NCBI GenBank assembly: GCA_023249405.1
Contig: JAHFCR010000010.1
Coordinates: 1-64,000 of the forward strand
From: Peptococcaceae bacterium
Lineage (GTDB): Bacteria; Bacillota; DSM-12270; Thermacetogeniales; Thermacetogeniaceae
Direction: 5' to 3'
Length of the DNA: 64,000 nucleotides
Shown: positions 50,952-56,506 of the stretch, in pieces
Layout: each line of letters opens with the position of its first letter
Position numbering within the stretch: the stretch's first letter is position 1
Notes under the pieces: generated by a model
Told to the model about the DNA's origin: nothing
What the model saw: the letters and a program-made list of their open reading frames with translations, nothing else
Databases searched by the model: none
Position numbers and translations under genes: made by a program

Positions 50952-52463
50952 TTAAAAAGCGAGCGTCTTGATGACCAGCGGCACCGTTCCCGCCTGACTC
51001 AGGGGTGTGCCGATATCCAGATAGTCTCCGTCGTCCAGGGCCACCTGATCGAGGCAGATGAGATCCGCTGCCTTGGTGTCCATGGCCGCCATCTTGGCGA
51101 CCACCGTCTGCCCCAGGACCAGGCCGAAATCCTGCTCGACCGCGATGATCAGGGTGCGGCCGGCTGCCAGGTAATTTCTCAAGCCGCTGATCAGGGCATC
51201 GGCCAGCGCCCCGACATCCCGGAACGTCGGCGAGGACGGCCCGTGTATGGCCACAGCCAGCGCCTGGCCGTCATCCCCGTGCCTGGTCAGCAATTCCATG
51301 ATGCTGCCCGGGAGATCATCGCTATAATCCATCTTATTGCCGATGCGCGGCTTGATCACCGGCACATTACGCAACGGAAGGGCCGTCAGGCTCCCCCGGC
51401 CCAGGTAAACTGTACTGCCGCTCAGGCTGAGGCTGTGGATGCCGGCCCCGAGCACTGTCGCCCGGATCGTCTCTGCCGGGCAAACCAGCCGCCAGCCCGT
51501 TACCGCTATCGCCTCTTTCACCGCTGCACCCAGCAGCGGGCCGATATCGCCGTAACAGAAAGGCTCTGCTGCCGGATCAGGCTCGCCCAGGTCGATGCGA
51601 TCGCACTGGCCGGCATGATCATAGATGAACCGCGACACGCCTCCGGAAAACATCACTGCGTCAAGCGGGTACTTTTGCTTGAGCGGGGCGGTTGTTAGCA
51701 ATGCTGACAACATACCGGAATCATTTGTTCCATTCAGCGCCTCCAGCAGGATGTCCGCCATACTCGCAGTAACGGACTGCAGTGCCGGCAGGTCTGCCCG
51801 GTCTCCATCCCGCAAGCGAATATTGTTCCGGTTCAGCAGTTGGCGCAACGGATCGCCGATCCAGGTGATCTGCTGCGCCTGAGGGGCTATCTCCACCAGT
51901 CTACCGCCTATTCTCAGGCAACAGGCGTCGATAACCAGGCCATTCTGAAAAATGGCGATGTTGGAGGTCCCGCCCCCGATATCGACATTGGCAACCGTGC
52001 TCGCCCACTTCCTTGAGTAGGAGGCGGCGCCAGAACCCTTGCCGGCCAGGATTCCCTCCAGCAGGGGGCCGGCCGTGGCTCCCACCAGACTGCCGGCGTA
52101 TCCGGCAATGCTGTCCAGCACTGCCTCCGCATTCTGCTTCCTGGCTGTCTCCCCGGTGATGATGACCGCCCCGGTGTCCACCTGAGCGGGGGTGCAGCCT
52201 GCATCCGTATACTCTGCGGCAACAAGCTTGGAAAAGGCTTCAGCATCGATGAATTGGCGGTCCATGAGGGGGGTGAAATGGATCCGGCTGCGATACAGCA
52301 CCTCCTTACCGGCGATCTCCGGCCTGGCCATTGTTCCCGCTCCGGAGGCGCTGTTCAGGTAGAGCCTGCTGAATACCATCTGAGTGGTGGTGGTGCCGAC
52401 ATCGATCCCCACGCTGATCAGCGTGCCGGGTCTCTTGCCCATGGTTGCCGCTCTCATCTTCAT
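50952..52463 (-). CDS. eutA: Ethanolamine ammonia-lyase reactivating factor EutA
   Basis: A 503-residue protein with the actin-like ATPase signature at its start (LISVGIDVGTTTTQMVFSRL), VDIGGGTSNIAIF near residue 170 and PLLGAAVKEAI near the end. EutA removes damaged cobalamin from ethanolamine ammonia-lyase using ATP. The ATG at 52463 overlaps the stop codon of the eutBC fusion (ATGA), so it is co-translated. It is the last gene of the operon; I see no clear terminator after it. Length is a little above the E. coli protein (467). Confidence 0.93.
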   Translation of the reverse strand: MKMRAATMGKRPGTLISVGIDVGTTTTQMVFSRLYLNSASGAGTMARPEIAGKEVLYRSRIHFTPLMDRQFIDAEAFSKLVAAEYTDAGCTPAQVDTGAVIITGETARKQNAEAVLDSIAGYAGSLVGATAGPLLEGILAGKGSGAASYSRKWASTVANVDIGGGTSNIAIFQNGLVIDACCLRIGGRLVEIAPQAQQITWIGDPLRQLLNRNNIRLRDGDRADLPALQSVTASMADILLEALNGTNDSGMLSALLTTAPLKQKYPLDAVMFSGGVSRFIYDHAGQCDRIDLGEPDPAAEPFCYGDIGPLLGAAVKEAIAVTGWRLVCPAETIRATVLGAGIHSLSLSGSTVYLGRGSLTALPLRNVPVIKPRIGNKMDYSDDLPGSIMELLTRHGDDGQALAVAIHGPSSPTFRDVGALADALISGLRNYLAAGRTLIIAVEQDFGLVLGQTVVAKMAAMDTKAADLICLDQVALDDGDYLDIGTPLSQAGTVPLVIKTLAF

Positions 52464-54550
52464 CCCGCCGTTTTCAGCTTGAGGGCGATGCCGCAGGCCT
52501 GATTCTCGATCACCTGGCACACCAGGTGGGCGACGTAGGCCCCGGCCTCAGCAGGGGGCGTGCCGTTGCAGTGAATGTTGGAGACCACCAGCCAGTCCGC
52601 CTCGGTAGTGGCTGCGGTTGGCCGGTATGCCAGGTAGGCGCTCATGCTGCCAGGCGTCCGCAGGCCGGGGCGCTCGCCGATCAGGATCACTACCACCTCT
52701 GTGTTCAGCATTCGCCCGATCTCGTTGATCAGGCCGACCCGGCCGAAACGGACGAAGACAGCCTGGCCGGTCGTGAGACCATTCAATTTTAAGCCCTGCT
52801 CGAGGGCGGGCAGAAATTCCTCCACGTTATCATCGATCGCCCTGGCGCTCAGTCCGTCGGAGATCACAACCTGTACCTGGCGCCGATCGGGACAGATCTC
52901 CTGCAGCCTGGTAGCGCTGTCCTCTGACAGGTGGCGTCCCAGGTGGGGCATCAGGATATACTCATCCCTGTCCCGCGCCCTGCTCTGCAGAACCGGCAAC
53001 CGCAGGCGCTGCAGCAAGCCCGGGGCGATCTCGCCGGCCACGGCATCGCGGGCTGCCGCATGGTCCTCTCGAAACGACAGCAGGCTTTCCATTGTCGGAC
53101 GCGGCCCGCTACGCCCGACGCCGATCCTGGCGGGAGTGGTCTGTAGCAGGGCGGTGAGGGGAGGCCTTTCCGGCCGGCAGTCCAGTCCGGCGGTGAAGAC
53201 CAGCGGGTCGCCGGCCTGGCCGGTGAGGCGCTGGTCTTTCATGATTCCCATCTCCTCCAGCCAGGCCTCAAACTCGGGCAGCGGCCTGAGGCCGAGCAGC
53301 AGGCGCAATGAGGCGATGTCGTGATAGCTGGTGCTCTGGTAGCCGAGCATCACGTCGTCTCCCATCGGTATGCCCATCAGGTAGTTGACCCCGGCGGCGC
53401 CCAGCAGTACCGCCATTCCCTCCAGGTCGTTCTGGTCGACCTGCATGTGGTTGGTGTAGCAGATGTCCGCCCCCATCGGGACGCCGGTCAGCTTGCCCAT
53501 GAAGTGGTCTTCGAGGGCGGCACGGGTCACCTGCTTGCTGTCAGCCAGGTATTCGGGACCGATGAAACCGACCACCGTGTTCACCAGAAACGGGGAGAAT
53601 GCCCTGGCCAGGCCATAGCAGCGGGCCTCCAGGGTGACCTGGTCGGCCAGGTGATGGCTGTTCGAGGATAGCTCGGAACCCTGGCCGGTTTCAAAATACA
53701 TGACGTTGGGGCCGGAGGCGGTGCCTCTGGCTAAGGCCAGTTCCCTGGCCTCGAAGAGCATCCCGGCATTGATGCCGAAGGCTCTGTTGCCGCTCTCTGT
53801 TCCGGCCAGGCTCTGAAAAACCAGGTCGCAGGGAGCGCCCTGCCTGAGCGCCTCCATCTGGGTGGTGACGTGCGCCAGGACGCAGCACTGGGTCGGAATC
53901 CGCCAGCGTGAGACGAAATCGTGCAGGGCATCGAGCAGCCTGCTGACGCTGACGACATCGTCCCGTACCGGATTGATCCCGATCACGGCGTCACCGCAGC
54001 CGTAAGAGAGCCCCTCCCGCACCGACGCCAGCACACCCTCGATATCATCTGCGGGGTGGTTGGGCTGGAGGCGGGCAGCCAGGGTGCCCGGCAGCCCGAT
54101 GGTGGTATTCGCCCGCGCCTCGACCCTGATCTTCCTGGCGCCCAGGATGAGGTCGAGGTTGGACATCAACTTGGTCACGGCGGCCACCATCTCGCTGGTG
54201 AGGCCGCGGCTGAGGCGCTGCAGATCATTGCCGGCTGTATGGTCGTCCAGGATGTAGGCGCGCAGTTGGCCGACGGTCCAGCCTCTGATCGGCCGGAAGA
54301 CCGATTCATCCACGGCGTCCTGGATGATCCGTGTCACCTCATCCGCTTCATAGTCCACCACCGGATGATGGCGGAGTTCCTCGAGTGGTAACTCGCTCAA
54401 CACCCGCTTTGCCGCCACACGCTCCTGGTCCGAAGCGGCGGCGATGCCGGCCAGGCGGTCACCCGACTTCTCCTCGTTCGCCTTGGCCAGAACGTCTTTG
54501 ATGTCCTTGAAGCTGTAGTTGGCGCCAGACAAATTAGCTGACAGGTTCAT
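52460..54550 (-). CDS. eutBC: Fused ethanolamine ammonia-lyase, large and small subunits (EutB-EutC)
   Basis: A 696-residue single protein joining both subunits. Residues 1-450 are EutB, with FQSLAGTESGNRAFGI near 245, YFETGQGSELSSNSHH near 285, GFIGPEYLADSKQ near 328 and YTNHMQVDQND near 365. After a linker of about 20 residues, 473-696 are EutC, beginning ARIGVGRSGPRP and ending with NIHCNGTPPAEAGAYVAHL. It cleaves ethanolamine to acetaldehyde and ammonia with coenzyme B12. The subunits are usually separate genes. All conserved blocks are intact, so this is a true fusion. ATG 54550 has GAGG upstream and lies 20 bases after the permease. Confidence 0.95.
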   Translation of the reverse strand: MNLSANLSGANYSFKDIKDVLAKANEEKSGDRLAGIAAASDQERVAAKRVLSELPLEELRHHPVVDYEADEVTRIIQDAVDESVFRPIRGWTVGQLRAYILDDHTAGNDLQRLSRGLTSEMVAAVTKLMSNLDLILGARKIRVEARANTTIGLPGTLAARLQPNHPADDIEGVLASVREGLSYGCGDAVIGINPVRDDVVSVSRLLDALHDFVSRWRIPTQCCVLAHVTTQMEALRQGAPCDLVFQSLAGTESGNRAFGINAGMLFEARELALARGTASGPNVMYFETGQGSELSSNSHHLADQVTLEARCYGLARAFSPFLVNTVVGFIGPEYLADSKQVTRAALEDHFMGKLTGVPMGADICYTNHMQVDQNDLEGMAVLLGAAGVNYLMGIPMGDDVMLGYQSTSYHDIASLRLLLGLRPLPEFEAWLEEMGIMKDQRLTGQAGDPLVFTAGLDCRPERPPLTALLQTTPARIGVGRSGPRPTMESLLSFREDHAAARDAVAGEIAPGLLQRLRLPVLQSRARDRDEYILMPHLGRHLSEDSATRLQEICPDRRQVQVVISDGLSARAIDDNVEEFLPALEQGLKLNGLTTGQAVFVRFGRVGLINEIGRMLNTEVVVILIGERPGLRTPGSMSAYLAYRPTAATTEADWLVVSNIHCNGTPPAEAGAYVAHLVCQVIENQACGIALKLKTAG

Positions 54551-54570
54551 GCTGATTGGCCTCGTTTCGT

Positions 54571-56004
54571 CTAGCTGTTCTGTATGAATGACGGCCCCTT
54601 GAACCATCTCCTGACGCTGGCCAGGTAATAGATGATCAATAGGATCAGGGCGCCCAGGATCGTATAGCCGGTCAACTGGTTGGGCGGAATCACGAACAGC
54701 ACGCAGATGAAGACGATCCATACCAGGGCCGTGGCATTTACAGCCGTGCTCCACTTACCCAGGCTCCAGGGTCCGTTGTTCTCCGGTTTCCAGATGCCCG
54801 CCCGCACCGCTCTCAGCTTCAAAAAGAGCGGGATGCCATAGGAGACGTAGAGGGCGATGGTGCTGATGGAGACGATGACGGAATAGCCCCCGCTGTATAC
54901 GGCAGACAGGAAAGCGACCACTGCCGAGAGCCAGATGGCGGCTACCGGGGTCATGAACCTGCTGCTGATCCCGGACCAGATCTTCGCTCCGGGCATTCCC
55001 CCGTCCCTGGCAAAGGCGTAGATCATGCGGGAGTTGGATGTGACAGAAGACAGTCCGCAGAACCACATGGCAATCACTACCACCCATAGGGTGGCCCGCC
55101 CGGCTGCGCCTCCGAGAGCATTTTCAATAATATAGATAAATGGGTTGGCGGCGGCGGCCACTGCAGCGTTATCCTTGGCCGCCATGGTCACGGCGAAGAG
55201 CATGAGATAGCCTACCGCTGCTGAAACCAGCACTGACAGGTAGACCCCCCAGGCAGCCTTGACCCGGGGGTTGACCGTCTCTTCGGTGATATGGGCGGAG
55301 GCGTCATATCCGGTGTAGGTCCACTGGGCCTGCAGCAGGCCCAGCATGAAGGCCAACCAGTATGGGTACTTGCCGGTCGTGAACCCGAATTGGAAGATAT
55401 GGGCGACACTCTGCTTGGGTCCGAAGATGAGCAGGGCGGAGATCAGGATCGCCACCCCGATAATGTGATAGATGGCGCTGATATCATTCAGCCTGGCCAC
55501 CAGCCTGATGCCAAAATGATTCAGCAGGGCATGGCTCAGCAGGAGTATGCCGTAGAGGACCAGGAAGTTACCCCAGCTCTCCTTGATGCCCAGCAGGGGC
55601 GCCAGAAAAGTTGCGGCCCCGAAGTCGATCCCGGCAGTGATGGTAAACTGGCCGAGCAGGTTGAACCAGGCTGTGAACCAGCCCCATCCCCTTCCCCCGA
55701 GAGCGGTGGCCCAGTGATAGAGCGCACCCGAGGTGGGAATGGCGGATGCCAGTTCGGCCATCCCGGCGGCTACCAGTAACGTGAAAATGGTTACCAGCGG
55801 CCAGCCGATGCTGTTGATGGCGGGACCTGCCATGCCGTAGCCATAGCCGTAGAGGGTCACGGCGCCGGTCAGGATCGAGATAATCGAGAACGAGATGGCA
55901 AAGTTGGAGAAGCCTCCCATATCCCTGAATAACTGCTGTACGTAACCGAACCGCTGCAGATCGGCAATATCCGCCCTGATCTGAACATTCTTCAAATCCT
56001 CCAT
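54571..56004 (-). CDS. APC-family permease, probable ethanolamine transporter
   Basis: A 477-residue integral membrane protein with about 12 helices, of the amino acid/polyamine/organocation superfamily. FSNFAISFSIISILTGAVTLYGYG and SGALYHWATALGG at the front, and GYDASAHITEETVNPR in the middle, match the yeast-type GABA/choline permease group. Its place before eutBC makes ethanolamine or a close amine the likely substrate. GGGAGG is 7 bases before ATG 56004. It is preceded by a small membrane protein gene 23 bases upstream. Confidence 0.9.
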   Translation of the reverse strand: MEDLKNVQIRADIADLQRFGYVQQLFRDMGGFSNFAISFSIISILTGAVTLYGYGYGMAGPAINSIGWPLVTIFTLLVAAGMAELASAIPTSGALYHWATALGGRGWGWFTAWFNLLGQFTITAGIDFGAATFLAPLLGIKESWGNFLVLYGILLLSHALLNHFGIRLVARLNDISAIYHIIGVAILISALLIFGPKQSVAHIFQFGFTTGKYPYWLAFMLGLLQAQWTYTGYDASAHITEETVNPRVKAAWGVYLSVLVSAAVGYLMLFAVTMAAKDNAAVAAAANPFIYIIENALGGAAGRATLWVVVIAMWFCGLSSVTSNSRMIYAFARDGGMPGAKIWSGISSRFMTPVAAIWLSAVVAFLSAVYSGGYSVIVSISTIALYVSYGIPLFLKLRAVRAGIWKPENNGPWSLGKWSTAVNATALVWIVFICVLFVIPPNQLTGYTILGALILLIIYYLASVRRWFKGPSFIQNS

Positions 56005-56027
56005 TCCTGATGCCTCCCTCGATGTGT

Positions 56028-56249
56028 TCAAGCCTCCTGGGTTCCTATCTTGGCTGCTGCCGCTGGAGCGTTAGCCGGTGCCTGATACCCTTTTTCTATC
56101 GGCATGCGGGTGTTTTTGTATTGCTGGTCGATAAAGTTTATATACTTGTCTGGCTGGAAATTCTGGACACTCTTATTCGCAATGAGCATGATCGAGGCGC
56201 CGAGAGCGATAGCCACAGCGATCACTACCAAACCGATGATCATTGACAT
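56028..56249 (-). CDS. Small single-span membrane protein, first gene of the ethanolamine operon
   Basis: A 73-residue protein with one helix (MSMIIGLVVIAVAIALGASI) and a polar tail containing QNFQPDKYINFIDQQYKNTR, ending in an Ala/Pro stretch. GGGAGGTG lies just before the ATG, a strong binding site. It is 23 bases upstream of the permease, on the same strand, and behind a leader with terminators. Small subunits of this size occur with some amine or solute permeases, so a partner role is a fair inference. No family is recognised. Confidence 0.7.
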   Translation of the reverse strand: MSMIIGLVVIAVAIALGASIMLIANKSVQNFQPDKYINFIDQQYKNTRMPIEKGYQAPANAPAAAAKIGTQEA

Positions 56250-56350
56250 CCTTGTTCACCTCCCGTCTTGTATACGAATGAATAAGCAAGACAGCATGAT
56301 CGCCGGCTCGACTTATTTCCAGCAAAATTCCTCTTTCGGTGAAAATAGAA

Positions 56351-56394
56351 AAGCCCTGTTTGAAGAGAACTGCGCTGTTCTTCAAACAGGGCTT
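56351..56394 (-). terminator. Leader hairpin/terminator before the ethanolamine genes
   Basis: AAGCCCTGTTTGAAGA pairs perfectly (16 bp) with 56379-56394. On the minus strand TTTTCTATTTTC follows, so it is a terminator placed 100 bases before the first gene. In the RNA the tip can form AAC-AGCGCA-GTT, a six-base loop with A at position 1 and G at position 4, as in ANTAR-protein targets. Confidence 0.7.
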
Positions 56395-56480
56395 CATTGC
56401 CTTGTCTGTCGGTTTTCGCTGCCGTGTGGTTTCGGCATAGAACTTACTATTCAGTTTAAAAATACCAATATAAAAAAACA

Positions 56481-56506
56481 AAATCCCCCTATCGTTCGGG
56501 GACTTC
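56481..56506 (-). terminator. First terminator-like hairpin in the ethanolamine leader
   Basis: On the minus strand TCCCC pairs with GGGGGA around eight bases and is followed by TTTTGTTTTTTT. It is about 40 bases after the predicted start of transcription. Confidence 0.55.

Follow-up and report, generated by a model that had tools for sequence, protein, structure and literature searches.

We analysed a 64-kb window from the draft genome of a Peptococcaceae bacterium (GenBank assembly GCA_023249405.1, contig JAHFCR010000010.1, here contig C113) and found a compact ethanolamine (eut) operon in which both subunits of ethanolamine ammonia-lyase (EAL) form one 696-residue chain, EutBC. The chain is encoded with the EAL-reactivating factor EutA, a permease, and a small protein with a single transmembrane (TM) helix, and the locus has no bacterial microcompartment (BMC) shell genes. 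A second contig of the same genome, C109, carries a complete BMC locus with EALs of its own. We consider it probable that the short locus, with its single-chain enzyme, serves as a cytosolic nitrogen route beside the compartmented long locus. The permease, probably partnered by the small TM protein, would import ethanolamine, and the fused, adenosylcobalamin-dependent EAL would split it into ammonia and acetaldehyde in the cytosol, with EutA renewing damaged cofactor on the enzyme. The short locus would thus mainly free ammonia as a nitrogen source, and the C109 locus would handle the carbon and energy of ethanolamine.

The chain contains both subunits in full. Its frame has no internal stop; Pfam EutB (PF06751) covers residues 12-443 (706.6 bits) and Pfam EutC (PF05985) residues 465-691 (251 bits). 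Two NCBIfam subunit models (NF011649 and NF003971) also scored over their cut-offs, and a sequence search of the Protein Data Bank matched the solved EAL subunits 2qez, 3abo, and 3any to the corresponding halves. Every invariant family column is intact (62/62 in EutB and 17/17 in EutC). The unbroken frame and the conserved blocks described in the first-pass annotation are both confirmed. Residues R160, Q162, N193, E287, F329, and D362, which we take to be the catalytic positions (numbered after the E. coli/Salmonella enzyme), are all kept. The sequence thus supports an EAL made as one chain from a compact operon, its catalytic residues intact. An AlphaFold model of the single chain (predicted local distance difference test score, pLDDT, 89.5; predicted template modeling score, pTM, 0.90) shows that the two halves would be able to pack within one chain, although as a monomer model it is no proof of activity or assembly. 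The EutB family part runs as far as GDPLVF (residue 452), the core of EutC begins at ∼463-467, and pLDDT falls below 50 at residues 456-461 only. These boundaries confirm a linker but put its length nearer 10-14 residues than the ∼20 first proposed.

The microcompartment locus and the location of the fused enzyme

EAL chemistry is usually discussed as requiring a compartment to contain acetaldehyde. No BMC-domain or EutN match was found anywhere in the window, and the shell genes are thus absent nearby, as first described; all matches in the genome (3.57 Mb, 168 contigs, 98.8% complete) lie on another contig. The wider suggestion of an organism without a microcompartment does not hold. Shell genes elsewhere in the genome, which the first-pass annotation had itself named as evidence against its reading, are present as a full Eut shell locus on C109, with seven BMC-domain matches and two separate, unfused EutB/EutC pairs. 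The locus encodes EutL, EutM-like, EutN-like, and EutK/PduT-like proteins, one further BMC-domain protein, EutE, EutT-like, RnfC-like, and EutQ proteins, EutB1, EutC1, EutA, the EutB2/EutC2 pair, and an Eat-type permease (TIGR00908, 472 bits). C109 therefore unites shell genes, EutE, and EAL in the manner of a long locus, a combination that the window operon lacks, whereas in the latter, genes for EAL and a permease stand together with no shell genes. The tetranucleotide composition of C109 correlates with that of most parts of the window at 0.90-0.94 (0.88 for one window third), as against ≤0.86 for other genomes, and this agreement makes mis-binning unlikely.

The fused enzyme differs from the C109 enzymes at the N terminus of EutC. 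Ahead of its EutC core, the fused chain has just 14 residues vs. 67 and 71 in the two C109 EutCs, so that the fusion lies where a targeting peptide would be expected. Shell-linked EutCs usually carry ∼55-80 residues before the core, targeting peptide included, and in Salmonella EutC, residues 1-19 direct cargo into Eut shells (PMC3299773). Among the loci that we compared, shell genes were missing from 17 of the 19 with EutC extensions shorter than 50 residues and present in 74 of the 79 with longer ones (Fisher p = 9e-13 for the association, a value overstated by related rows and some short contigs). The EAL of A. baumannii functions without a metabolosome and without a targeting peptide (PMC9426561). 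The case for a cytosolic, uncompartmented fused EAL is fairly strong on this sequence evidence. Of the cytosolic pathway first proposed, the part concerning the enzyme fits the absent EutC extension; compartment-free use of ethanolamine by the organism as a whole does not fit the C109 locus.

The leading alternative is that the C109 microcompartment takes up the fused EAL as cargo, for example in mixed oligomers with C109 EutB/EutC, which bear the targeting peptide. Several observations weigh toward this alternative or otherwise against a separate cytosolic nitrogen route. A full shell locus is present in the same genome. An acetaldehyde dehydrogenase is missing from the window operon, and C109 holds the sole EutE-family match over cut-off that the genome contains; AOR, which we considered as an acetaldehyde sink, was rejected because it is absent from the genome. 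Acetaldehyde may therefore still need BMC enzymes. The nearest relatives of both the fused enzyme and the permease sit in BMC loci, so that a BMC link is possible; the EutC extensions of the second copies at loci L097 and L098 are short even though shells are encoded there; and no nitrogen-linked regulator was identified in the operon. We nevertheless judge the cargo explanation unlikely, since the fused chain is without the EutC targeting extension, has low identity to the C109 subunits (58-66% for EutB and 44-47% for EutC), and is accompanied by its own permease and its own EutA.

A role in nitrogen supply, for which we argue by analogy, is weaker than the localization to the cytosol. Klebsiella pneumoniae, like the window genome, has BMC-free and BMC eut loci in one genome; its short locus serves mainly for nitrogen, and its long BMC locus is needed for carbon (PMC11101070). 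Klebsiella differs in its unfused subunits and Eat permease, and the nitrogen/carbon split shown in Klebsiella is carried over here by inference. Given the complete BMC locus on C109, the short locus of the window genome would probably likewise serve mainly for nitrogen. We put forward a fuller account tentatively: through a fusion event of its own and loss of the EutC targeting peptide, a canonical single-chain EAL may have become a cytosolic route dedicated to nitrogen from ethanolamine, in a bacterium that retains two compartmented EALs. The route would be supplied by a permease of two parts, its small single-TM subunit representing a family not named before. Relative to the first reading of this DNA, the main corrections are the C109 locus, the targeting peptide apparently lost where the subunits join, and a recurring pair of small protein and permease. 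A compartmented EAL and a structurally distinct, untargeted one in the same genome raise the question of what the compartment is for.

Integrity of the fusion

By its sequence, the fusion looks real. Between codons 437 and 487, there is no ATG, GTG, or TTG in any frame, and the EutC core starts near 463; a single missed stop, therefore, cannot account for the fusion. Third-position GC content in the linker is 0.80 compared with 0.83 and 0.80 in the flanking domains. Internal initiation at the ATG of codon 437 could in principle also yield a free EutC of ∼260 residues, such that fused and free forms coexist. The sequence GGAGGAG lies ∼8-10 nt upstream of this in-frame ATG, but the residues encoded there (LEEMGIM) belong to the conserved EutB C terminus, and the motif may be incidental. 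We regard such coexistence as improbable. Because of this GGAGG-like stretch, the fixed 1:1 subunit ratio claimed at first is likely rather than certain. With subunit pairing set by one gene, a natural single-chain EAL would be a convenient reagent.

Somewhat less credible still is a shift of the fused enzyme to a different amino alcohol, with ethanolamine no longer its primary substrate. A genome with three EAL paralogues has room for specialization, and the paralogue EutB1 of C109 carries a catalytic-site change (D362A); the fused chain, however, keeps all checked catalytic positions and invariant columns, and its type of permease goes together with eut genes elsewhere. An assembly or consensus error merging two separate genes, a concern raised by the 168-contig draft and by the lack of the fusion in any near relative, can practically be dismissed, because loss of a stop alone would not account for a separate EutC when no start codon lies between codons 437 and 487 in any frame, coding periodicity continues across the linker, and not one conserved residue is missing.

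EutB1 of C109 (L005:2478-3857) and nine relatives form a clade of ten EutBs in which Ala replaces the catalytic Asp362. Its members include the second EutBs of the Geosporobacter, Alkaliphilus, and Petrocella BMC loci and a Brevibacillus panacihumi protein. The Ala362 EutBs may have a different substrate or be noncatalytic. A tandem eutB pair followed by one eutC is found in the clostridial Eut BMC loci L040, L065, L069, L093, and L094.

Relatives and precedents

We surveyed 399 genomes of the phylum and obtained 43 EutC matches in 33 genomes. Only the EutC of the window lies in a long fused frame (0/42 for the others), and none of the 80 best loci from genomes of named species was fused. A search for single chains with both EutB and EutC, proposed in the first-pass annotation, thus returned none besides the window chain in the phylum set; a distant one is encoded on Sinorhizobium meliloti pSymA. 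Fused EutBC1 and EutBC2 of Pelobacter carbinolicus were described in 2012 (PMC3543383). Single-chain EALs are therefore known but rare, and our verdict on the fusion reported here is that it is real, rare, and precedented.

Like the window protein, the Pelobacter proteins (Pcar_0491 and Pcar_0467) unite the large EAL subunit with the small one in a single chain. Unlike the window protein, they are two fused copies inside a 43-gene cluster with cobalamin genes, and the Pelobacter genome has no eutA but does have AOR (PMC3543383). The S. meliloti pSymA protein (L100:2788-5136) combines PF06751 and PF05985 in one chain of 782 residues; it differs in its ∼30% identity to the window chain, its twin-arginine (Tat)-like N terminus, and the absence of eutA from the 8 kb read around it. 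Such an N terminus would put a B12-type enzyme outside the cytoplasm.

Short loci with separate subunits offer closer parallels in gene content. The operon of genome G233 (locus L136; eutA-eutB-eutC-small ORF-permease, ORF being open reading frame) has the same genes as the window operon, including the small TM ORF and the permease type; its EutC is 236 residues long, and no shell genes were found within the 18 kb read, as at the window. Its eutB and eutC are separate, however, and their products are 60% (EutB) and 50% (EutC) identical to the window sequences. Short loci of haloarchaea (eutB-eutC-eutA) and of Secundilactobacillus (eutA-eutB-eutC plus a permease) also show a short EutC extension, eutA, and no shell genes nearby, but there the subunits are distinct proteins, and in many cases eutB and eutC overlap or share a reading frame.

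Trees built for EutB, for EutC, and for the two combined put the window enzyme on a branch by itself among canonical EALs, although these were quick trees with several long branches, which leaves its exact placement uncertain. The highest identity to it is 62% when the two domains are taken jointly and 68% for EutB by itself. The window enzyme is not sister to the other EAL copies of its genome, and the trees gave no support to an origin of the fused gene from a duplicate within that genome. EutC is absent from the two other genomes of the genus (1.5-1.8 Mb, 71-84% complete) and from most of the family, while the window genome has three copies; its eut genes may have been gained recently, or the family may have lost them patchily.

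Operon layout, transport, and leader

Table 1. Features of the eut operon in window coordinates, with counterparts of the small protein at other loci
Feature	Position	Strand	Basis
eutA, EAL-reactivating factor, 503 aa	50952..52463	minus	Pfam EutA, 513 bits
eutBC, putative fused ethanolamine ammonia-lyase, 696 aa (EutB ∼residues 1-452, linker ∼453-462, EutC ∼463-696)	52460..54550	minus	Pfam EutB + EutC
EutB-EutC linker, codons 453-462	53165..53194	minus	codon listing
APC-superfamily permease, 477 aa, probable ethanolamine importer	54571..56004	minus	PF13520, 182 bits
73-aa single-TM protein, probable permease partner	56028..56249	minus	position beside permease in other eut loci
Operon leader: strong hairpin ∼56344-56396 and terminator-like hairpin 56485-56502	56344..56502	minus	folding, terminator scan
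Small protein, L122	6562-6720		
Small protein, L135	8164-8352		
Small protein, L136	8732-8944		

The four genes are arranged as the first-pass annotation had it, with eutA overlapping the end of eutBC and the permease and small membrane protein upstream (Table 1). The overlap, read from the sequence, is 4 nt (ATGA); eutA may alternatively start at an in-frame GTG further upstream (to 52520). Pfam PF06277 covers residues 14-503 of EutA, which scored below the NCBIfam equivalog cut-offs, as did the EutA of C109.

The permease falls outside the Eat type (54.9 bits with the ethanolamine permease model TIGR00908; cut-off 381.75), yet its type is linked to eut genes. EutC occurs in eight of the nine other genomes with this type of permease vs. 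24 of the 389 remaining genomes (p = 6e-9), relatives of the permease and EutC are often on the same contig, and at locus L064, a 76% identical homologue lies directly upstream of eutB-eutC. The 73-residue protein has no Pfam or NCBIfam match. A homologue is encoded directly upstream of the permease in the BMC operon of genome G295 (E 5e-9), and look-alikes occupy the same place in G187 and G233. The simplest reading of these sequences is that the protein is a permease subunit, and a small TM partner of this kind may correct the annotation and expression of these transporters. The small proteins share a motif like N-x-S-(V/I)-(R/Q)-(N/E)-F, C-terminal to the helix. A likeness of the 73-residue protein to the N-terminal extension of Secundilactobacillus permeases was suggestive by eye but was set aside: 1 of 900 composition-matched shuffles equalled the top score among the real sequences, and of these three, two did not stand out from shuffles.

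The operon leader folds 4.75 standard deviations below shuffles. It contains a hairpin that is long and almost perfect and, in a terminator scan, a terminator-like hairpin before the first gene; attenuation is possible. A B12 riboswitch or other known leader RNA was rejected, as the window has no Rfam match and leader matches were at chance level only. An AxxGxx hexaloop can be drawn into the strong hairpin of the leader, but the twin hairpin required for ANTAR/EutV control was not seen by eye in the leader. The one ANTAR protein of the genome adjoins a putative glutamine synthetase and is not part of an identified EutVW pair.

C109 also carries a match to Rfam PYLIS_3 (pyrrolysine insertion, mttB; 89 bits) at L004:8208-8307 (G000:C109:38208-38307). 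The ORFs flanking it resemble one mttB interrupted by an amber codon, and the window genome may use pyrrolysine.

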